Of a stretch of 64,000 bases of DNA, positions 27,940 through 38,577 are shown piece by piece. Positions within the stretch are counted from its first letter, which is position 1; every line of letters begins with the position of its first letter. The DNA is from Prescottella agglutinans (GTDB lineage Bacteria > Actinomycetota > Actinomycetes > Mycobacteriales > Mycobacteriaceae). The notes beneath the pieces are model-generated. The model did not search any database. It saw nothing but the letters and a program-made list of their open reading frames with translations, and had not been told where the DNA came from. A program made the translations under genes and the position numbers. The stretch covers positions 124,001 to 188,000 of the forward strand of contig NZ_RKLP01000013.1 of NCBI RefSeq assembly GCF_004011865.1, in the 5' to 3' direction.

Positions 27940-29605
<1,666 letters not shown>

Positions 29606-29656
29606 ATGTTCGAGGAATGGTTTCAATACCGACAGAGAGGGTGGGATTTCGAATGA
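29606..29656 (+). CDS. 16-residue ORF coupled to the first small gene
   Basis: The ORF MFEEWFQYRQRGWDFE starts with ATG after a purine-rich AAGGTGGGGGG and ends in TGA overlapping the next ATG (ATGA at 29653-29656). Such an overlap suggests translational coupling. Whether the peptide itself has a role is unknown. Rich in aromatic and charged residues, it is unlike the following peptides. Confidence 0.4.
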   Translation: MFEEWFQYRQRGWDFE

Positions 29657-29784
29657 GTGTGTCGTTTCTGAACGCAACAGCGACCATGCTGAACAGTCTC
29701 CTGACCGATGTGTGGAGCGGATCGTGGATGCCCGGAGTCGTAGGCCTCACCGGTTCCCTGGGTGGCCTGCTCGAAATGAGCTGA
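29653..29784 (+). CDS. Small protein 1 of cluster (43 residues), PorA/PorH-like in style
   Basis: A 43-residue peptide, MSVSFLNATATMLNSLLTDV followed by a Trp/Gly/Leu-rich half ending GSLGGLLEMS. There is no signal peptide and no long hydrophobic core; the pattern of alternating hydrophobic and small/polar residues would make an amphipathic helix. GAGGGTGGG precedes the ATG. No homologous family can be named with certainty. Its setting, with four further small ORFs, each with its own ribosome-binding site, supports a real gene. Confidence 0.6.
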   Translation: MSVSFLNATATMLNSLLTDVWSGSWMPGVVGLTGSLGGLLEMS

Positions 29785-29831
29785 CCGCAGCGCGTGTCGT
29801 CGCACCAATCTCTGAGAATAGGAGTGGATGA

Positions 29832-29951
29832 ATGAAGCTGGGATCGCTTGCCCCCGTTCTGACGAACGAACTCGTACAGATGATCACGGGCTATCTTGCT
29901 TTCATGCCATTGCAGCTGTCGGTCGACTTCGCCTGGAATATGCCCGGCTGA
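29832..29951 (+). CDS. Small protein 2 of cluster (39 residues)
   Basis: A 39-residue peptide (MKLGSLAPVLTNELVQMITG, then aromatic residues, ending FAWNMPG). It starts with ATG 7 nt after GGAG. It is hydrophobic and amphipathic without a signal peptide. The gene begins 47 bp after small protein 1. The function is unknown; see the cluster finding. Confidence 0.6.
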   Translation: MKLGSLAPVLTNELVQMITGYLAFMPLQLSVDFAWNMPG

Positions 29952-30000
29952 GCCGGCTGACGACAGCAAATCGAAAAATTCGTAAGGAGAGTGAATCGTA

Positions 30001-30219
30001 GTGGATACCGGAAGTCTTGTTGACCTCGTCACGAGTGTTGACGTGGGTTCTCTGGCGGCGCCCATCGGTAATGGGCTCAACGGCATCGTCAATGCGATCT
30101 TCAATGTCGTCGGTGGCGTGATCGCCCTGTGGCCTGCGGGTTCGTCGGCTGTGGCCGGAAGCCTCGACGCAGCCCTCGGCTCTGTCGGAACGGTCCTCGG
30201 CTCCATCGGCGGACAGTAA
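30001..30219 (+). CDS. Small protein 3 of cluster (72 residues)
   Basis: The longest of the set: 72 residues starting MDTGSLVDLVTSVDVGSLAA and ending in a Gly/Ser/Val-rich repeat (SLDAALGSVGTVLGSIGGQ). The centre (GIVNAIFNVVGGVIALWPAG) is moderately hydrophobic and could span a membrane. The GTG start has AAGGAGAG upstream. Composition (Gly, Ser, Val, Leu, Ala; few charges; no Cys) and length resemble the corynebacterial channel peptides PorA and PorH, which are also made without signal peptides. Assignment by style only. Confidence 0.65.
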   Translation: MDTGSLVDLVTSVDVGSLAAPIGNGLNGIVNAIFNVVGGVIALWPAGSSAVAGSLDAALGSVGTVLGSIGGQ

Positions 30220-30234
30220 GAAGGAAGGGAAAAC

Positions 30235-30360
30235 ATGTTCGATCTATCTCTCACCTACAGTTCCGATCTGGTCGGTTTCGGGTCCGTCGACCTCGTGGCC
30301 ACGTTCGCTCAGTACCTGAATGCCCTGTCCCTGAACCCGTACCCGCCCCTCCCGATCTAG
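30235..30360 (+). CDS. Small protein 4 of cluster (41 residues)
   Basis: A 41-residue peptide (MFDLSLTYSSDLVGFGSVDL ... ending NPYPPLPI). It is acidic, with a Ser-rich amphipathic first part and a Pro-rich tail. AAGGAAGGGA lies just before the ATG, a strong ribosome-binding site, and only 15 bp separate it from small protein 3. No signal peptide, no Cys. Serines in the first half would be candidates for O-mycoloylation if the PorA/PorH idea is right; this is speculation. Confidence 0.65.
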   Translation: MFDLSLTYSSDLVGFGSVDLVATFAQYLNALSLNPYPPLPI

Positions 30361-30375
30361 CGAAAGGAATTCGAT

Positions 30376-30477
30376 ATGTTGCAGACGTATCTCAACGGGA
30401 TGCTCAGCTACGTTGCCAACGCGCTGGGATTGGTCGGCATGGGAAGCAAGATTCTCAAGAATCCGCCCCAGAAGTAG
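30376..30477 (+). CDS. Small protein 5 of cluster (33 residues)
   Basis: A 33-residue peptide, MLQTYLNGMLSYVANALGLV followed by a short basic tail (GMGSKILKNPPQK). It is amphipathic and, unlike its neighbour, cationic. AAAGGAA precedes the ATG with 8-nt spacing. It is the last gene before the terminator at 30547. An acidic/basic pair of peptides side by side recalls the two-component PorA/PorH channel. Confidence 0.62.
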   Translation: MLQTYLNGMLSYVANALGLVGMGSKILKNPPQK

Positions 30478-30546
30478 CCCGGATCGGCGTGAGTAGGAGA
30501 CATAATGCCGCCATTGACGGTGGTGAGTGTCCTCGTGCTCGCTCTG

Positions 30547-30597
30547 CGAAACCGAGGCTCTCGCGCCCTATGGCGGGCGCGGGACGCCTCGGTTTCG
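30547..30597 (+). terminator. Strong terminator closing the small-gene cluster
   Basis: CGAAACCGAGGC (30547-30558) pairs perfectly with GCCTCGGTTTCG (30586-30597). The inner bases (CGCGCCC/GGGCGCG) extend the stem to more than 20 bp, and TGTTTG follows. It marks the end of the small-gene transcript before the WS/DGAT gene. Confidence 0.9.
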
Positions 30598-30669
30598 TGT
30601 TTGTCGAACGAATGATTCTTCCGGGCGTGGGGGAAATCGGAAATTGCAGTCCAGCCGATGGGAGTGTCC

Positions 30670-32127
30670 ATGCCTTCGTCCGAACGGCCGGTCGCGGGGA
30701 TCGAGCAGTTCAATCCACGCGACGCCGACTTCGTCTACAACGAGTCGGACGGACATCTCGGCCACCTGCTTGCCGTGTATCTCTTCGACACATCGCAGCA
30801 GCCGGCAGCCGAACTGTCACAGAACGACGCCGCCGATTGGGTGGCCGCGCGACTCGGTCACAACCGCATGTTCACGCACCGGATCCGCCGTGTGCCGTTG
30901 GGCCTCGCGCACCCCTACTGGGAGCCGATCGCGAACCTGGATCTGGACGAGCACGTCCGGGTACGAGTGATCACCGAATCCGGCTGGGCGCCAGTGCAAC
31001 AGCATCTCGACACCCTGCTGACCTCGCGGATGGACCTCACCCGCCCGCCGTGGGAGCTGCACTTCCTCACCGGCATCACCGGGATCGACCGACACCCCGG
31101 TCGGCTGACCGCTGTGGTGCTCAAGGCCCACCACAGTGCGGGTGACGGGCTCGCGGTCTTGGAGCTGGCCGAGAAGATCTTCTCGGACGAGGTGTGTCCG
31201 GCGAGCCGTGTGCCGGCTACGCGTTTCCTGCGGGGACGCATGTTCGCCAGGTCGGTGCTGGGACTTCCCCGCCAGCTGTATCGCTTCGCCAAGGACGTTC
31301 CAGGCAACCGCGCCGCCGTCCATGCAGTGAACGACGCCGCGAAGTCCGGTCAGTGGATGGAGAACGTCGAACATCCCGCCATCCGGTTCAACGGCACGGT
31401 GAGCGGGTTCGGCTCCCTTGCGCCGATCACTCTGCCCGCGAGCGCGATTCGCCTTGTCAGGGAATCCGTTCCAGATGTCACCGCAAACGATGTTCTGCTT
31501 GCCGTAGTCGGGGGCGCTCTGGCGAGATACCTGGCCGAGAAGGGCGAGCCCCACGAGGGTTCGCTCGTCGCGATGGTCCCACGATCCATGCGCAAGGTGG
31601 AGGCGTGGGAGTCGGCAAACCAATTGGCCGTCATGGGCGTCGACATGCACACCGACATCACGGATCCCCTCGACCGGGTTGTCCGCGTTGCCCGGTCGTC
31701 CACGTCGGAGAAGATCCGCACCTCCAATATCGCAGTCCGACGACAGGCGGCCTCGATGGCGACCGCTCCGCCGCCGCTCCTGAGGCTGATGGCGTACTCG
31801 CGCAAGAAGATCACCCCGGACCTGACCCGCCCGCGTTATCAGCACACGATGGTGAGCAACATGCCCTTCTCGATCGAGGGCTTCACACTCAACGGCGCAC
31901 CGGCCGCGGCGGTGATCGGTGCCCAACCGCCTGTCGACGGAGACGGCCTGCGTCACTTCGTCGTCACGGCTGCCGGTGGCAACCTGATGCTCACCGTGGT
32001 CGCCGACTCGGCGACGATGCCCGACCTGGACCACTACCTGGACCTGGTTCGTACGAGTCTCGCCGAACTCGAGGAGGCCGCGGCCGGTACGACGAAACCG
32101 AGTCGGTCCGAAGAGGTTGCCTCTTGA
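30670..32127 (+). CDS. Wax ester synthase / diacylglycerol acyltransferase (WS/DGAT) family protein
   Basis: A 485-residue acyltransferase. The catalytic motif HHSAGDG is at about residues 154-160; other family motifs are PPWELHFLTG, the internal V-V-G-G-A-L-A-R-Y-L, M-V-P-R-S-M-R and the C-terminal NMPF-type motif (SNMPFSIEG). It condenses acyl-CoA with diacylglycerol or a fatty alcohol to make storage lipid at the membrane. ATG at 30670 is preferred (GGGAG five bases upstream) over ATG at 30658. The DGF-type pocket is conserved, so activity is plausible. Confidence 0.92.
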   Translation: MPSSERPVAGIEQFNPRDADFVYNESDGHLGHLLAVYLFDTSQQPAAELSQNDAADWVAARLGHNRMFTHRIRRVPLGLAHPYWEPIANLDLDEHVRVRVITESGWAPVQQHLDTLLTSRMDLTRPPWELHFLTGITGIDRHPGRLTAVVLKAHHSAGDGLAVLELAEKIFSDEVCPASRVPATRFLRGRMFARSVLGLPRQLYRFAKDVPGNRAAVHAVNDAAKSGQWMENVEHPAIRFNGTVSGFGSLAPITLPASAIRLVRESVPDVTANDVLLAVVGGALARYLAEKGEPHEGSLVAMVPRSMRKVEAWESANQLAVMGVDMHTDITDPLDRVVRVARSSTSEKIRTSNIAVRRQAASMATAPPPLLRLMAYSRKKITPDLTRPRYQHTMVSNMPFSIEGFTLNGAPAAAVIGAQPPVDGDGLRHFVVTAAGGNLMLTVVADSATMPDLDHYLDLVRTSLAELEEAAAGTTKPSRSEEVAS

Positions 32128-33586: not shown

Positions 33587-34086
33587 CCGAGGTCGGCGGC
33601 CAGCGCCCGGTAGTACTCGCTCTGCGCTGGGAAGTAGTCCCCGAACTCGGGGAGCGCCCGCTCCTGCCGCGCCGCGACCAGCATGTCCAGGTAGTACTCC
33701 CATCCGGGCCCCACCTCGGCGACTGTGTCGACGGGGATGCCGTGGTGCGTGAGGCTCAGCTCGGTGGCCCCGTCCACCTCACGCAGATCGGCGGACAGGC
33801 GCCAGGACCCGCCCGGATCGGTCACGGACAGCGCGAGGTGCCGCGGCGGTTCGCATCCGTCGATGAGCATCTCACTCCACGGCTTGTCCTCCTCGAACGC
33901 CAACTGGACGCGGATGGTGTTGCCGGCGCCCGGCTCTCCCTCCCACGGGCCGAACCAGGTGGCGGTCCTCTCCGATTCGGTGATGCTGGCCCAGACGTCG
34001 GCGATCGGTGCGTCGAACGTACGCGTGATGCGCAGGTCGACCCCGTCGAGTGCGCGGTCGAGGGCGCCTTGCGGTTGTGGATCCAT
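33583..34086 (-). CDS. SRPBCC (AHSA1-like) family protein
   Basis: A 167-residue START-like protein (DLRITRTFDAPIADVWASIT, TATWFGPWEGEPGAG, WSEMLIDGCEPP, LSLTHHGIPVDTVAEVGPGW), the AHSA1/activator-of-Hsp90 subgroup. It probably binds a hydrophobic ligand. Its stop shares bases with the convergent Lrp stop. It is the fourth SRPBCC gene in the window and has no neighbouring ArsR gene here. ATG is at 34086. Confidence 0.85.
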   Translation of the reverse strand: MDPQPQGALDRALDGVDLRITRTFDAPIADVWASITESERTATWFGPWEGEPGAGNTIRVQLAFEEDKPWSEMLIDGCEPPRHLALSVTDPGGSWRLSADLREVDGATELSLTHHGIPVDTVAEVGPGWEYYLDMLVAARQERALPEFGDYFPAQSEYYRALAADLG

Positions 34087-34129
34087 CGGCTCTGCCTTCC
34101 CTACGTCGAGGCCGGGTGGGCGCGCCTTT

Positions 34130-34391
34130 TCACTCGCCCTCACCCAGCTTGTCCTCCCCGCGGCGGCGGAAGAAGCCGAATCCGGGAACTCCGATGATCG
34201 CCTGCCGCACGTCCTTGACCACTTCGAGCAGTTCGTCGGCGACGGCGGCCGACCGCGCCGCCGACCCGACGACCACCTCCGTCGACGAACTCGGCGGTGT
34301 CGACGGACCACCGCGCCGCCTTCCACACCTGGGTGAGCAACGACGACGGGGCGGGCACGCGCGGCAGCATCCGCACATCGTGCCCGAGCAT
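34130..34391 (-). pseudogene. Small helical protein gene broken by a one-base frameshift
   Basis: On the minus strand the frame from ATG 34391 (MLGHDVRMLPRVPAPSSLLT, QVWKAARWSVDTAEFVD) is coding-like up to about 34270. The coding-like sequence then continues one frame away (EVVVGSAARSAAVADELLEV, VKDVRQAIIGVPGFGFFRRR, ending at 34130). Removing one G from GACGGAG at the junction would give a continuous 86-residue protein. The family is not recognised. It could be a pseudogene, a sequencing error or, less likely, programmed frameshifting. Confidence 0.5.
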
Positions 34392-34427
34392 CGCGGAGTG
34401 TCGGTGCCTGCTGGGAGGATCGGAATC

Positions 34428-34931
34428 GTGGATGCCGAACACACCGTCGTCGATTCGCCCGTCGGGCCGCTGACACTGGTCCGCAACCCCGAGGGCCTGT
34501 GCGGGCTGTACATGCACCTGCAGCGGCACCTGCCCGACAGCGGGCGGTTCGGCCCGCGCGTCGACACCGGCTTCGACGACGTCACCGCGCAGTTGGCCGA
34601 GTACTTCGCGGGCAATCGGACCGAGTTCACGGTGCCGCTCGCGCCGCGGGGCACCGAGTTCCAGCAGCGGGTGTGGGCCGCGCTGCGGACCATTCCGTAC
34701 GGCGAGACCTGGACGTATATGCAGCTCGCGGAGCATCTCGGCAACCCGGCAGCGATCCGCGCCGTCGCCGCCGCCAACGGCCGGAACCCGATCGGCATCA
34801 TCGTCCCGTGCCACCGCGTGGTCGGCAGCGACGGCTCGCTCACCGGCTACGCCGGCGGGCTCGAGCGCAAGCAGTTCCTGCTGGATCTGGAGAGCCCGGC
34901 GTCCGTGGGAATCCAGGATGGACTGTTCTGA
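34428..34931 (+). CDS. ogt: Methylated-DNA--protein-cysteine methyltransferase (Ogt type), first copy
   Basis: A 167-residue repair protein. The active-site motif VPCHRVVG has the acceptor Cys at residue 128; PYGETWTYMQLAEHLGNPAA is the HTH that flips the base, and LTGYAGGLERKQFLLDLE is family-typical. It moves the alkyl group from O6-alkylguanine to its own Cys. GTG at 34428 has GGGAGG upstream. It begins the alkylation-repair operon; the ECF sigma gene starts about 47 bp after its stop. Confidence 0.95.
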   Translation: MDAEHTVVDSPVGPLTLVRNPEGLCGLYMHLQRHLPDSGRFGPRVDTGFDDVTAQLAEYFAGNRTEFTVPLAPRGTEFQQRVWAALRTIPYGETWTYMQLAEHLGNPAAIRAVAAANGRNPIGIIVPCHRVVGSDGSLTGYAGGLERKQFLLDLESPASVGIQDGLF

Positions 34932-34977
34932 CGCGGATCGAACCTCACGTTCCGGCGCCCCGGAGCGTCTACCCGGT

Positions 34978-35484
34978 GTGGGACTGAAACCGTTCGAGAA
35001 CATCGTCACCGAGCACGGGCCGGTGGTGTTGCGGGTGTGCCGCGCACTGCTCGGTCCCGTCGACGCCGACGACGCCTGGTCCGAGACGTTCCTGGCGGCG
35101 CTGCGGGCGTACCCCGACCTGGCGCCGACCGCCAATGTCGAGGCGTGGCTGGTGACCATCGCGCACCGTAAGGCCGTCGACGTGCACCGGGTGCGGCAGC
35201 GGACGCCCGTCCCGACCGACGACCTGCCGGACCGGGCGTCGCCGCGGGACCTGCCCGGCACGTGGAACCACGAACTGTGGGACGCGCTGGCCGACCTGCC
35301 GTTCACGCAGCGGGCCGCCGTCGTCTACCACCACCTGGCCGGACTCCCGTACGCGGAGGTCGCGGCGATCCTCGGCAACAGCACCGACGCGGCCCGCCGC
35401 GCCGCTTCCGACGGCATCGCCCGGCTCCGCCGCACCTACCCGGCCGACACCGCACCATTCGCACAGGAAGGAGCCGTCCGATGA
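34978..35484 (+). CDS. ECF-type RNA polymerase sigma factor in the alkylation-repair operon
   Basis: A 168-residue sigma-70 protein with region 2 (ENIVTEHGPVVLRVCRALLG, DDAWSETFLAALRAYP, VEAWLVTIAHRKAVDVHR) and region 4 (LADLPFTQRAAVVYHHLAGL, PYAEVAAILGNSTDAARRAA). No anti-sigma gene is adjacent; its position among repair genes suggests it turns on the operon after alkylation damage. GTG at 34978 has GGAGCG upstream. An ATG at 34918, inside the preceding gene, is possible. ATGA overlap with the next gene. Confidence 0.9.
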   Translation: MGLKPFENIVTEHGPVVLRVCRALLGPVDADDAWSETFLAALRAYPDLAPTANVEAWLVTIAHRKAVDVHRVRQRTPVPTDDLPDRASPRDLPGTWNHELWDALADLPFTQRAAVVYHHLAGLPYAEVAAILGNSTDAARRAASDGIARLRRTYPADTAPFAQEGAVR

Positions 35485-36068
35485 GTGTCCTCCCCACCCC
35501 GAGCGTGGACCCTGCGGACCTGAGCCGCCTGCACGCCCGCCTCGCCGCCGCCGCCGACCGCGACGGCCTGCTCGACCTCGCCTACCGGTCCGTCGACACC
35601 CCCGTCGGACGGCTGCTGCTCGCCGCCACCGACGTCGGACTGGTCCGGGTCGCGTACCCGCGCGAGGACCACGACGCGGTACTGGCGATGCTGGCCGAGC
35701 GGGTGAGCCCGCGCATCCTCGAGGCCCCGGCCCGGCTGGACGCCGCCGCCCGGCAACTCGACGAGTACTTCGAACACCGGCGCACCCGCTTCGACGTCCC
35801 GCTGGACCTGCGGCTGTCCAGCGGCTTCCGCCGTGCGGTGCTCACCCGACTGCCCGACATCGCGTACGGCAGCACCGCCAGCTACGCGCAGGTGGCCGAG
35901 GCCGCCGGCAGCCCCCGCGCCGTCCGTGCCGTCGGCACGGCGTGCGCCACCAACCCGCTGCCGCTGTTCGTGCCGTGCCACCGGGTGGTGCGCAGCGACG
36001 GCAGCATGGGTCAGTACGCGGGCGGCGCCGACACCAAGCGCGCCCTGCTGACCCTGGAGGCGGCATGA
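35481..36068 (+). CDS. Methylated-DNA--protein-cysteine methyltransferase, second copy
   Basis: A 195-residue MGMT-family protein with the active-site VPCHRVVRS (Cys166), the HTH AYGSTASYAQVAEAAGSPRA and QYAGGADTKRALLTLE. It has about 30 extra N-terminal residues (DLSRLHARLAAAADRDGLLD) that are not in the first copy. The Asn-Arg hinge found in classic enzymes is replaced by ACATNPLPLF. It may have another substrate range or serve as an alkylation sensor like the C-domain of Ada (inference). It is coupled to the sigma gene in front and overlaps the following oxygenase gene by 4 bp. Confidence 0.92.
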   Translation: MSVLPTPSVDPADLSRLHARLAAAADRDGLLDLAYRSVDTPVGRLLLAATDVGLVRVAYPREDHDAVLAMLAERVSPRILEAPARLDAAARQLDEYFEHRRTRFDVPLDLRLSSGFRRAVLTRLPDIAYGSTASYAQVAEAAGSPRAVRAVGTACATNPLPLFVPCHRVVRSDGSMGQYAGGADTKRALLTLEAA

Positions 36069-36778
36069 CCACGCTCACCGAGCGCGTCGAGGCGCTCGAC
36101 TGGACACCCCTCCTCGACGAACTCGACCGGTCCGGGGGCGCGCAGAGCGTGCGTCCGGTCCTCACCGCCGCCGAGTGCCGCGCCGTCGCCGACCTCTACG
36201 ACGACGCGGGCCTGTTCCGGTCGACGGTCGACATGGCGCAGCACCGCTACGGCTCCGGCCAGTACCGCTACTTCGACTACCCGCTGCCGGCGTCGATCGC
36301 GGAGCTGCGGTCGGTGTTCTACGTGAAACTGCTTCCGGTGGCGCGGGAGTGGGCGTGGCGCCTGGGTCGCCCGGCGCCGTGGCCCGACACTCTCGACGAG
36401 TGGCTCGTGATGTGTCACGCTGCCGGGCAGGTGCGGCCCACCCCGCTGATCCTGCGGTACGGACCGGGCGACTGGAACGCCCTGCACCGAGACCTGTACG
36501 GCGAGTTGGTGTTTCCGCTGCAGGTGGTGATCGGGCTCGACGAACCCGATGTCGACCACGAGGGCGGCGAGTTCCTGCTCGTCGAGCAGCGCGCCCGGGC
36601 GCAGTCCCGCGGCACCGCGACCGTGCTGCGGCAGGGGCACGCCTTCGCCTTCACCACCAACGACCGCCCGGTGCAGTCGACGCGAGGATGGTCCGCGGCC
36701 CCGATGCGGCATGGCGTAAGTACGGTGCGCAGCGGTGCCCGGCGCACCCTCGGCCTCGTCCTGCACGACGCGGAGTGA
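36065..36778 (+). CDS. 2OG-Fe(II) oxygenase of the Oxygenase-NA type
   Basis: A 237-residue protein. The iron motif is HRDLYGELVFPLQVVIGLDE (HxD), the distal His is in MRHGVSTVRSG and the oxoglutarate-binding Arg region is GARRTLGLVLHDA. The family (PF09859-like) is often found beside DNA-repair genes, which suggests it acts on nucleic acid, but its substrate is unknown. It overlaps the second MGMT gene (ATGA) and precedes the Ada-like gene by 6 bp, so it is part of the repair operon. Confidence 0.85.
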   Translation: MTTLTERVEALDWTPLLDELDRSGGAQSVRPVLTAAECRAVADLYDDAGLFRSTVDMAQHRYGSGQYRYFDYPLPASIAELRSVFYVKLLPVAREWAWRLGRPAPWPDTLDEWLVMCHAAGQVRPTPLILRYGPGDWNALHRDLYGELVFPLQVVIGLDEPDVDHEGGEFLLVEQRARAQSRGTATVLRQGHAFAFTTNDRPVQSTRGWSAAPMRHGVSTVRSGARRTLGLVLHDAE

Positions 36779-36784
36779 CCGGCC

Positions 36785-37048
36785 ATGTACACACTGATCG
36801 GTAGGGACGGGAAGCCGTACGAGAGCGCCACTCCCGGCACGCTCGGCGGTCACCGGAAGGATCGCATCTACGGCACGCTGGACTGCCCCGGCGCGGCCCG
36901 TGCCATCGCCCGCGGTGGCTACGTGACGCAACGCGTCTTCTTCGCCGACGAGGACACCGCGATCGCCGCCGGCTACCGGCCGTGCGCGGTGTGCCTGCGT
37001 CGGAAGTACGACGTGTGGAAGGCCTACAGCCGGAAGGGAAGTCGGTAG
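36785..37048 (+). CDS. Small Ada-type zinc-binding domain protein
   Basis: An 87-residue protein resembling the N-terminal zinc domain of Ada: a first Cys in YGTLDCPGAARAIARGGYV, then QRVFFADEDTAIAAGYRPCA with the C-x-x-C pair (PCAVC) and a basic tail (RRKYDVWKAYSRKGSR). Ada uses four Cys ligands, one of which accepts a methyl group from phosphotriesters. Here only three Cys are visible, so either His/Asp completes the site or the transfer role is lost. No AraC domain is present. Stop and next start are directly adjacent (TAG/GTG). Confidence 0.8.
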   Translation: MYTLIGRDGKPYESATPGTLGGHRKDRIYGTLDCPGAARAIARGGYVTQRVFFADEDTAIAAGYRPCAVCLRRKYDVWKAYSRKGSR

Positions 37049-37714
37049 GTGTCGGCGCTCATTCCCCGGCCCCGTCGCGCGGTCGCCCCCGGTGCCGTGT
37101 TGGTTCCGGACTGGCTCGGTACCGACGAACAGCGCCACCTGGTCGGGGCGTGCCGCGAGTGGGCGCGCGGACCGGTGCCGATGCGGGCGGCCCGACTGCC
37201 GACCGGACACGCGATGTCGGTGCGGACGGTCTGCCTGGGCTGGCACTGGCAGCCGTACCGCTACAGCCGGATCGCCGACGACGCCGGCGGCGGACGGGTG
37301 CTGCCGGTACCGGAGTGGCTGGCGCAGTTGGGAAGACGCGCCGTCGCCGACGCCTACGGCGATCCCGCCGCCGGAGCGTCCTACGACCCCGACGCGGCGC
37401 TGATCAACTTCTACGACGACACCGCCCGCATGGGTATGCACCGCGACCAGGAGGAGCGGGCGGACGCCCCGGTGGTGTCGCTGAGCATCGGCGACACGTG
37501 CACGTTCCGGTTCGGCAACCCCGATACCCGGAACAAGCCGTACACGGACGTCGAACTGTGCTCGGGGGATCTGTTCGTGTTCGGTGGTCCGTCCCGCTTC
37601 GCGTACCACGGTGTGCCGAAGACGTTTCCGGGCACCGCGGATCCGGAGTGCGGGCTGACGCGCGGCCGCCTCAACATCACGCTGCGGGTCACCGGGTTGG
37701 AGGACACGCGATGA
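37049..37714 (+). CDS. alkB: Alkylated-DNA repair dioxygenase AlkB
   Basis: A 221-residue 2OG-Fe(II) dioxygenase: iron ligands His131 and Asp133 (MGMHRDQEE) and His187 (FAYHGVPK), and the oxoglutarate Arg in RLNITLRVT. LINFYDDTARMGMHRDQEE and S-I-G-D-T-C-T-F-R-F-G are AlkB-typical. It removes methyl groups from 1-methyladenine and 3-methylcytosine by hydroxylation, releasing formaldehyde. The GTG start abuts the previous stop, and the alkA start overlaps its own stop. Confidence 0.95.
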   Translation: MSALIPRPRRAVAPGAVLVPDWLGTDEQRHLVGACREWARGPVPMRAARLPTGHAMSVRTVCLGWHWQPYRYSRIADDAGGGRVLPVPEWLAQLGRRAVADAYGDPAAGASYDPDAALINFYDDTARMGMHRDQEERADAPVVSLSIGDTCTFRFGNPDTRNKPYTDVELCSGDLFVFGGPSRFAYHGVPKTFPGTADPECGLTRGRLNITLRVTGLEDTR

Positions 37715-38577
37715 GAGCCCATACCCTCAGCCTCCCCTTCCGCCCGCCCTTCACCACCGCCCCGATGCTCGGCGCCCTGGCCGCGCACGCCGTCGACGGA
37801 CTCGAGCGCCACGACCCGGAGAGCGGCACCCACACCCGCGTCGTCCCGGCCCCGCACGGGCCGGCGGTGGTGAGCGTGCGGTTCGACGGCACCGATCACG
37901 TCACGGCGACCGTGCGCGCGTCGCATCCGGACGATGTCTCGCATGTCGACGCGCTGGTGCGCGGGTGGCTGGATCTCGATGCCGACACCGAGACCGTCGA
38001 TGCGGCGCTGGGGGCGCATCCGCTGCTCGCCGATCACGTCGCCGCGCGGCCCGGGCTGCGGATCCTCGGTTCGGTCGACGGCTTCGAGACGGCCGTGCTG
38101 ACAGTCCTAGGCCAGCAGGTGTCGCTGTCGGCGGCAAGGACATTCGGATCGCGCTTCGTGACAGCGTTCGGTACCCCGACCGAGTTCGACGGGTTCGTGA
38201 GCTTCCCCGATCCGGAGCAACTCGCCCAACTCGATCCGCTGGTCGTCCAGAAGGCCGTCGGCCTCACCGGGGCCCGCGCCCGCACCGTCCAGGCGCTCGC
38301 GGAGGCCGCGGCGGACGGGCTGCACCTCGGTCCCGACGCCGACCCGACCGAATTCCGCGCCCGCCTGCTGGCGTTGCCGGGGATCGGCCCGTGGACCGCC
38401 GACTATCTCGCGGTGCGGGTGCTCGGCGACCGTGACGCCTACCCGTCCGGCGACCTCGTGCTGCGGCGCGCGTTGGGGGTGAAGACTGCGCGCGAGGCCG
38501 CCGCGGCATCGGAGCCGTGGCGGCCGTGGCGGGCGTACGCCGTGTTCCATCTGTGGGCGAGTCAGGCGTTCCTGTAG
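37711..38577 (+). CDS. alkA: DNA-3-methyladenine glycosylase (AlkA)
   Basis: A 288-residue HhH-GPD glycosylase. An N-terminal AlkA-type sheet domain is followed by VLGQQVSLSAARTFGSRFV, the helix-hairpin-helix LLALPGIGPWTADYLAVRVL, catalytic Asp248 in YPSGDLVLRRALG and the C-terminal PWRAYAVFHLWAS. It excises 3-methyladenine and other alkylated bases. Unlike Ada-AlkA fusions it has no methyltransferase or AraC part. Its last codons and stop are duplicated at 42762-42809. Confidence 0.95.
   Translation: MRAHTLSLPFRPPFTTAPMLGALAAHAVDGLERHDPESGTHTRVVPAPHGPAVVSVRFDGTDHVTATVRASHPDDVSHVDALVRGWLDLDADTETVDAALGAHPLLADHVAARPGLRILGSVDGFETAVLTVLGQQVSLSAARTFGSRFVTAFGTPTEFDGFVSFPDPEQLAQLDPLVVQKAVGLTGARARTVQALAEAAADGLHLGPDADPTEFRARLLALPGIGPWTADYLAVRVLGDRDAYPSGDLVLRRALGVKTAREAAAASEPWRPWRAYAVFHLWASQAFL

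Follow-up and report, generated by a model that had tools for sequence, protein, structure and literature searches.

Five conserved genes for small, signal-less peptides in Prescottella and two further genera of mycolic-acid bacteria, in one genus at the position of Corynebacterium porH-porA

The closest described counterparts of the locus reported here are the small channel peptides of Corynebacterium, whose genes porH and porA are described as sitting between groEL2 and ppk2, and the same sources state that PorA of C. jeikeium and C. urealyticum was found via this slot, a search with C. glutamicum porA being described there as giving no clear match (PMC3792995, PMC5944148). In C. glutamicum, the O-mycoloylation site of PorA is given as S15 (PMC5310785), and site mapping in this species is described as having placed the modification on Ser, less often Thr, among small Gly, Ala and Ser residues, with no strict motif (PMC11066868). 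The way in which PorA, PorH and ProtX cross the plasma membrane is described as unclear (PMC12632848). The cell-wall channels described for Rhodococcus include the MspA-family porins PorARc, PorARr and PorBRr, with mature lengths of ~180-234 aa and Sec signal peptides, and for R. equi an anion-selective channel is described as demonstrated beside cation-selective ones (PMC9233653). Work on signal-less pore peptides of the mycomembrane, as far as we found it, concerns Corynebacterium. Low-mass channel activities have reportedly been obtained from Rhodococcus, and Lichtinger 2000 is said to describe a channel-forming protein of R. erythropolis and Riess 2003 the anion-selective channel of R. equi, reportedly with small subunits (about 8.4 and 11 kDa), 45 sequenced residues and no assigned genes.

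The present locus lies in Prescottella agglutinans, of the Rhodococcus equi complex (source genome of 5,425,108 bases in 22 contigs), in a window of 64,000 nucleotides, which is the whole stretch of DNA that was analysed. An initial annotation had pointed to six small open reading frames, all on one strand and closely spaced, and all six were found in place on the plus strand: a 16-aa ORF (29606..29656), whose stop overlaps the start of the next frame, followed by ORF1 (29653..29784, 43 aa), ORF2 (29832..29951, 39 aa), ORF3 (30001..30219, 72 aa, GTG start), ORF4 (30235..30360, 41 aa) and ORF5 (30376..30477, 33 aa). The DNA is less GC-rich than its surroundings, as had been remarked, with 57.2% GC for the cluster vs 68.9% for the window, a value equally low in 8 of 2527 same-size windows. 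The ribosome-binding sites, which had been called good for most of the frames, are ordinary for ORF2-ORF5, but ORF1 is preceded by a conserved, less usual G-rich stretch. Sequence blocks 5' of ORF1 (about 29400-29652) are alike between Prescottella and the second genus discussed below, and possibly represent a promoter or leader.

ORF1 to ORF5 are real genes, mostly under purifying selection. They occur in identical order and on the same strand at all 23 loci found, as a proposed check of gene order was meant to establish, GTG is the start of ORF3 in 22 of these, and 38 of the 44 dN/dS values computable from ten pairs and five ORFs (six were not computable) are at or below 0.5. The higher values, given like the others without a formal test against 1 and some of them arising from few changes, belong to ORF2 (1.10, 0.67 and 0.53) and ORF5 (0.91, 0.64 and 0.52). 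With gene order and reading frame both preserved across 23 loci in three genera, and dN/dS mostly <=0.5, the five ORFs stand far above chance; homologues with a conserved reading frame, whose absence the initial annotation had named as the outcome that would speak against its proposal, were found. Among the peptides, that of ORF4 shows the strongest conservation (mean column identity 60%). At one locus (L056) ORF5 was picked by eye, and at another (L057) ORF3 and ORF5 are weak matches. The proposed cluster of small genes thus holds for five of the six frames but not for the 16-aa ORF, which we reject as a gene: its peptide is kept in five or six of the 12 Prescottella loci, the rest having lost it or carrying it out of frame, it is absent in all 11 loci outside Prescottella, and its final codons overlap the conserved stretch immediately 5' of ORF1.

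The cluster was detected in 12 of 14 genomes of Prescottella (missing from two), nine of 28 of a second genus, g23 (missing from 19), and two of five of a third, g13. The search for homologues that had been proposed was made with a profile of ORF4 over 401 genomes of the family, and gave 26 genomes with matches at E <= 0.01, 23 of them convincing (12 Prescottella, two g13 and nine g23); matches in three g9 genomes (E 0.0009-0.0017) fall within larger open frames (142-8255 aa) and were set aside as chance. The profile of ORF1 returned the same 23 genomes plus three weak ones and no further convincing genome, its matches in one g3 and two g23 genomes (E about 0.006) and at a second place in G236 being attributed to chance. 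Because this profile was built with g13 and g23 rows from loci found by ORF4, it serves as confirmation and is not fully independent. ORF3 used as a single query matched 12 of 61 relatives, every one within Prescottella, and its profile matched 12 of 14 genomes of that genus, second places in G002 (L015) and G009 (L034) being discarded as chance; six named relatives of ORF3 (four Prescottella, one R. hoagii and one Rhodococcus sp.) have 53-85% identity. An order-wide sample of 397 genomes gave no match outside the window's own genome, and tblastn of ORF3 against plasmids gave three weak matches, the best at E 0.4. In Pfam and NCBIfam searches no family matched any of the five peptides, so that these genes may well be missed by annotation. 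Among PDB profiles, ORF1 and ORF4 found matches only at E 0.7 or worse, and ORF3 had a weak match, to a flavoprotein, at E 0.014. No publication on this cluster was found by title or abstract in literature under CC0, CC BY and CC BY-SA licences.

In the second genus, the locus of the cluster corresponds by position to Corynebacterium porH-porA: a Cpn60 gene (groEL2, PF00118) lies upstream and, on the downstream side, there is a PPK2 gene (PF03976). When the PPK2 and GroEL2 of this genus were compared with ten porH loci of Corynebacterium, PPK2 matched downstream in 10/10, at 67-75%, and GroEL2 matched upstream in 9/10, at 81-85%. Four genomes (G268, G152, G116 and G129) have the order groEL2, five peptide genes, a WS/DGAT gene, a second WS/DGAT gene and ppk2, and in G209 the cluster is inverted within the groEL2-ppk2 interval, which therefore holds the cluster in five of the eight assessable genomes, one of them inverted; the ninth (G236) was not assessable, its cluster being on a 5-kb contig. 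In the remaining three (G191, G282 and G245), the cluster lies 3.3 kb away on the other side of groEL2 and in the opposite direction, and no PPK2 was seen in the 2.3-3.8 kb examined beyond groEL2. With five clusters in the slot and three at 3.3 kb, groEL2 is no more than a few kb away from any of the eight assessable ones. Downstream of groEL2 in G191 and G245 there is a 30-aa relic of ORF1 (18.6 bits, 0/200 shuffles as high), at 15132-15224 of L061 and 17271-17363 of L188, oriented to groEL2, which an inversion or a duplication at this slot may have left behind.

The cluster of the window is not located at groEL2, the two being on different contigs (C5 vs C16). Among the 12 Prescottella clusters, those of G006 and G009 follow groEL2 at distances of 6.3 and 7.4 kb, and the other ten, the window's included, are on a different contig from groEL2 or more than 500 kb away. 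None of the 14 Prescottella genomes showed a PPK2 over the roughly 14 kb that follow groEL2. The two cluster-free ones (G003 and G013; stretches L153 and L163) showed no match to the five profiles or to PorA/PorH over ~14 kb 3' of groEL2. Of 21 further genomes of the family, each from a different genus and including one Corynebacterium, seven have PPK2 within 14 kb of groEL2, so the groEL2/PPK2 pair is old and the content between its members variable. None of these 21 groEL2 stretches (one only 2 kb long) matched the five profiles at E <= 0.01, and the Corynebacterium stretch alone matched the PorH profile. A 47-aa ORF with a PorA-like LSSG (L180, oriented 2058-2201; 5.9 bits against the PorA profile, a score reached by 1/200 shuffles) lies between groEL2 and ppk2 in one genome of a different genus and may be a further slot peptide, and a 21-aa slot ORF was seen in a single genome of another genus.

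Over the 115 peptides (five ORFs at 23 loci), lengths are 28-72 aa, compared with about 37-70 aa for PorA and PorH, which likewise have no signal peptide. The expectation of a set with neither signal peptide nor Cys was borne out, a crude Sec-like pattern being present in 5/115 and Cys in none. The 41-aa and 33-aa neighbours had been noted as acidic and basic; over the 23 loci, ORF1-ORF4 are acidic on average (mean charge -2.3 to -4.6) and ORF5 is the only basic family (mean +1.4, positive in 20/23). The description of the peptides as mostly amphipathic is right to a moderate degree. Amphipathicity exceeded that of their own shuffles (p<=0.1) in 18/23 for ORF3, 17/23 for ORF4, 14/23 for ORF1 and 10/23 for ORF5, but in only 2/23 for ORF2; an amphipathic helix is likely for ORF3 and ORF4, has a fair case in ORF1 and is weakly indicated in ORF5, and none was seen for ORF2 in this comparison over 23 loci. 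A possible kinship within the set, between ORF2 and ORF3 and between ORF3 and ORF5 (21-26% hhalign probability, above 20/20 shuffles), was judged too weak to be accepted.

When 18-19 loci were aligned for each ORF (out of 23, near-identical rows being omitted), 14 columns beyond the start Met were invariant: L16, G23 and S24 in ORF1 (19 rows), S5 and S30 in ORF2 (19 rows), S5, S12 and D14 in ORF3 (18 rows), F15, L20, L31 and S32 in ORF4 (19 rows), and G23 and S24 in ORF5 (18 rows). Seven of the 14 are thus Ser, with at least one in each peptide, more than the share of Ser in the peptides of the window would predict (hypergeometric P 1.5e-4; the control is a simple one and takes no account of how readily different residues tend to be conserved). 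The Ser matching S15 of PorA is invariant in 8 aligned PorA homologues, and the sites of ORF1 and ORF5, in which the invariant Gly adjoins the invariant Ser, fit the small-residue context of the C. glutamicum sites. We regard the invariant Ser residues as candidate O-acylation (mycoloylation) sites.

The resemblance to PorA and PorH that had been suggested holds for length, charge, lack of Cys, lack of a recognisable signal and, in the second genus, the slot, but not for homology by profile; the slot and the linked WS/DGAT gene are not among the features named in the initial annotation. Like PorH, PorA and also ProtX, the peptides come from tiny adjacent genes and are mostly acidic; they share with PorH and PorA the groEL2-ppk2 slot in five of the eight assessable genomes of one genus, and with PorA the presence of an invariant Ser. 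As to a common transcription unit, the genes adjoin in fixed order at 23/23 loci, and a hairpin follows ORF5 at each of them in a count with no shuffle control. In contrast to porH and porA, there are five genes rather than one or two, one family is basic, a WS/DGAT gene is linked, and 10/12 Prescottella clusters are away from groEL2. When the five peptides were compared by hhalign with alignments of 9 PorH and 8 PorA rows (from ten loci, omitting the divergent PorH-like L109 and PorA-like L104 and L107), probabilities were 0.2-6.4%, so that no homology was found by this comparison. Eight of the ten pairs fell within 20 column shuffles; ORF2-PorH and ORF4-PorA exceeded all 20, yet at only 2.9 and 6.4% probability. 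The test has low power for such short, fast-changing peptides, given that PorA against PorH itself yields 0.3%, and we do not claim membership of the PorA/PorH family by sequence. The PorA peptides of C. jeikeium and C. urealyticum (40 and 37 aa) are similarly very small and were recognised by the same kind of positional argument, whereas there one peptide is enough and pore activity was demonstrated. The MspA porins differ from the five peptides in belonging to the MspA beta-barrel family, in their Sec signals and in their mature size of ~180-234 aa; the five peptides have no Pfam match, to the MspA profile (PF09203) or any other, and the window's genome has two MspA-type genes, on contigs other than that of the cluster. 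The channels of Lichtinger 2000 and Riess 2003 come from related organisms.

ORF5 is followed by a hairpin (30547..30597, plus strand; 12-bp outer stem 30547-30558 / 30586-30597). A hairpin of 9-20 pairs follows ORF5 at all 23 loci, a count made in GC-rich DNA with no shuffle control and with the search length set by hand at three loci lacking the acyltransferase gene; in that comparison the best-scoring hairpin of the window is a different pairing in the same region. Of the one strong terminator that had been proposed, the hairpin is present, but its T-run is weak and a scan with a terminator consensus did not list it. An Rfam match on the hairpin (E 0.19, far below the gathering score) was rejected. 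The structure is possibly a terminator or attenuator ahead of the WS/DGAT gene, and since a hairpin follows ORF5 at every locus, the five peptide genes may be transcribed as a unit of their own, the enzyme being read through or separately expressed.

Beyond the hairpin, the window contains a WS/DGAT-type acyltransferase gene on the same strand (30658..32127, start at 30658 or 30670) with an HHxxxDG motif. Its product matches PF03007 and PF06974 above their cut-offs (112.3 and 52.1 bits), and TIGR02946 at 282.3 bits, below the cut-off of 309.95. Such a gene lies 3' of ORF5 on the same strand, about 76-215 bases away, in 20/23 loci, with about 50-100% identity in 19 and 28% in the twentieth (L013), which looks decayed; tblastn found no WS/DGAT match at L009 or at the two g13 loci, and at L009 a short stretch resembles, by eye, a WS/DGAT C-terminus. 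The gene thus looks decayed in two Prescottella genomes (L013 and L009) that keep all five peptides intact. A tree of 35 sequences (nine linked, three second copies and 23 paralogues from three genomes; L139, below the cut-off, was omitted) places the linked enzymes in a single clade (support 100/100 by the group table and 100/99 at the fork as drawn), which spans two genera and splits by genus. HHxxxDG is present in nine of nine linked enzymes, the L062 copy carrying an internal stop. A second WS/DGAT clade, sister to the linked one, lies between the cluster and ppk2 in the second genus (L062 10026-11471, L063 9955-11400 and L064). Farther from the cluster the chromosome differs between lineages, so cluster and acyltransferase have stayed together in different surroundings.

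Since the order of the genes is kept in three groups of mycolic-acid bacteria, in one of them at the porH/porA slot, it is reasonable to suppose that the products are peptides of the outer envelope, perhaps of a pore. The balance of the evidence leans, not heavily, towards five genes encoding mycomembrane peptides of a new type, likely a multi-peptide channel, and the cluster would be a positional and probably functional counterpart of porHA whose peptides are signal-less and possibly O-acylated. From sequence and position we infer a single transcript, export, an outer-membrane location, acylation, a channel and a role for the enzyme, in the following manner. ORF1-ORF5 would form one transcription unit and their peptides be made together; these mostly acidic, membrane-seeking peptides would leave the cytoplasm by the same route as PorA, PorH and ProtX; a mycoloyltransferase would O-acylate the invariant Ser residues; and in the mycolic-acid outer membrane the peptides would then build what is most likely a hetero-oligomeric channel, possibly a ring made of more than one kind of subunit, while the WS/DGAT enzyme may supply a lipid or acyl product for the same envelope structure. 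Because the genome already has two MspA-type porin genes, a channel made by the cluster would be an additional one, and the fact that a second channel is not required counts against this part of the proposal. Further points against it are the profile comparison with PorA and PorH, which found no homology, the position away from groEL2 in 10/12 Prescottella, the window's included, the absence of the cluster from two of 14 Prescottella and 19 of 28 g23 genomes, the scant amphipathicity of ORF2, and the failure to see a PPK2 beyond groEL2 in G191, G282 and G245. A more specific version, in which the porHA locus carries a five-component lipid-modified channel with its own acyl-CoA-dependent acyltransferase modifying the peptides or a lipid partner, is possible but doubtful.

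The linked enzyme suggests other roles for the peptides. They could coat or load the neutral lipid that it makes, as a droplet coat or as a shuttle of wax ester or triacylglycerol to the envelope, phasins and oleosins being the analogues. The gene's presence downstream of the cluster in 19/23 loci at about 50-100% identity, and the existence of an own clade in two genera that stays beside the cluster in differing surroundings, argue for such a link. Against it, the peptides are intact where no enzyme match was found (L009 and both g13 loci) or where the match is an apparently decayed one of 28% (L013), the L013-L014 pair still giving dN/dS of 0.20-0.53; a hairpin separates peptide and enzyme genes, and neither the porHA slot nor the invariant Ser would be explained, so that we consider this role unlikely. 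Alternatively, the WS/DGAT enzyme could itself O-acylate the invariant Ser inside the cell from acyl-CoA, giving a novel type of bacterial lipopeptide for the envelope or for release. Consistent with such an activity are the invariant Ser that every peptide carries, the HHxxxDG motif seen in all nine linked enzymes of the tree and the wide acceptor range of this superfamily. It seems quite unlikely all the same, as the enzyme match is absent at 3/23 loci, probably decayed at a fourth and interrupted by an internal stop at a fifth (L062), and as we know of no precedent for this family acting on ribosomal peptides.

The presence of several amphipathic, signal-less peptides adjoining on one strand would also suit a leaderless multi-peptide bacteriocin, or surfactant peptides, released against other bacteria. 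Leaderless bacteriocins are usually basic and amphipathic, but four of the five families here are net acidic, only ORF5 being basic, and no transporter or immunity family was detected in 11 larger neighbouring proteins (two of which have no family at all). Retention of the cluster in 12/14 genomes of the genus also speaks against this function, which would leave the groEL2-ppk2 slot unexplained and which we hold to be very improbable.

If the doubtful version with a five-component, lipid-modified channel is correct, signal-less mycomembrane peptides would be a general, fast-evolving system of mycolic-acid bacteria extending beyond Corynebacterium, and the cluster would be the source of the low-mass channel activities of Rhodococcus. 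In any case the cluster gives a comparable second system, found in Rhodococcus-type bacteria, which shares the PorA/PorH locus in part and shows no recognisable sequence similarity to these peptides; it provides candidate acylation sites and a candidate gene for the rhodococcal channel measurements of long ago.

As to the wider surroundings, a 4-hydroxyphenylpyruvate dioxygenase gene lies upstream of the cluster on the minus strand (27940..29115) and is mentioned as context only, being linked in two of four further Prescottella loci mapped over 16 kb. Downstream, at 34050-38577 of the window, two genes with methylguanine-DNA methyltransferase domains are followed by one with AlkA-type glycosylase domains, which identifies, by predicted domains, an alkylation-repair cluster near the cassette.
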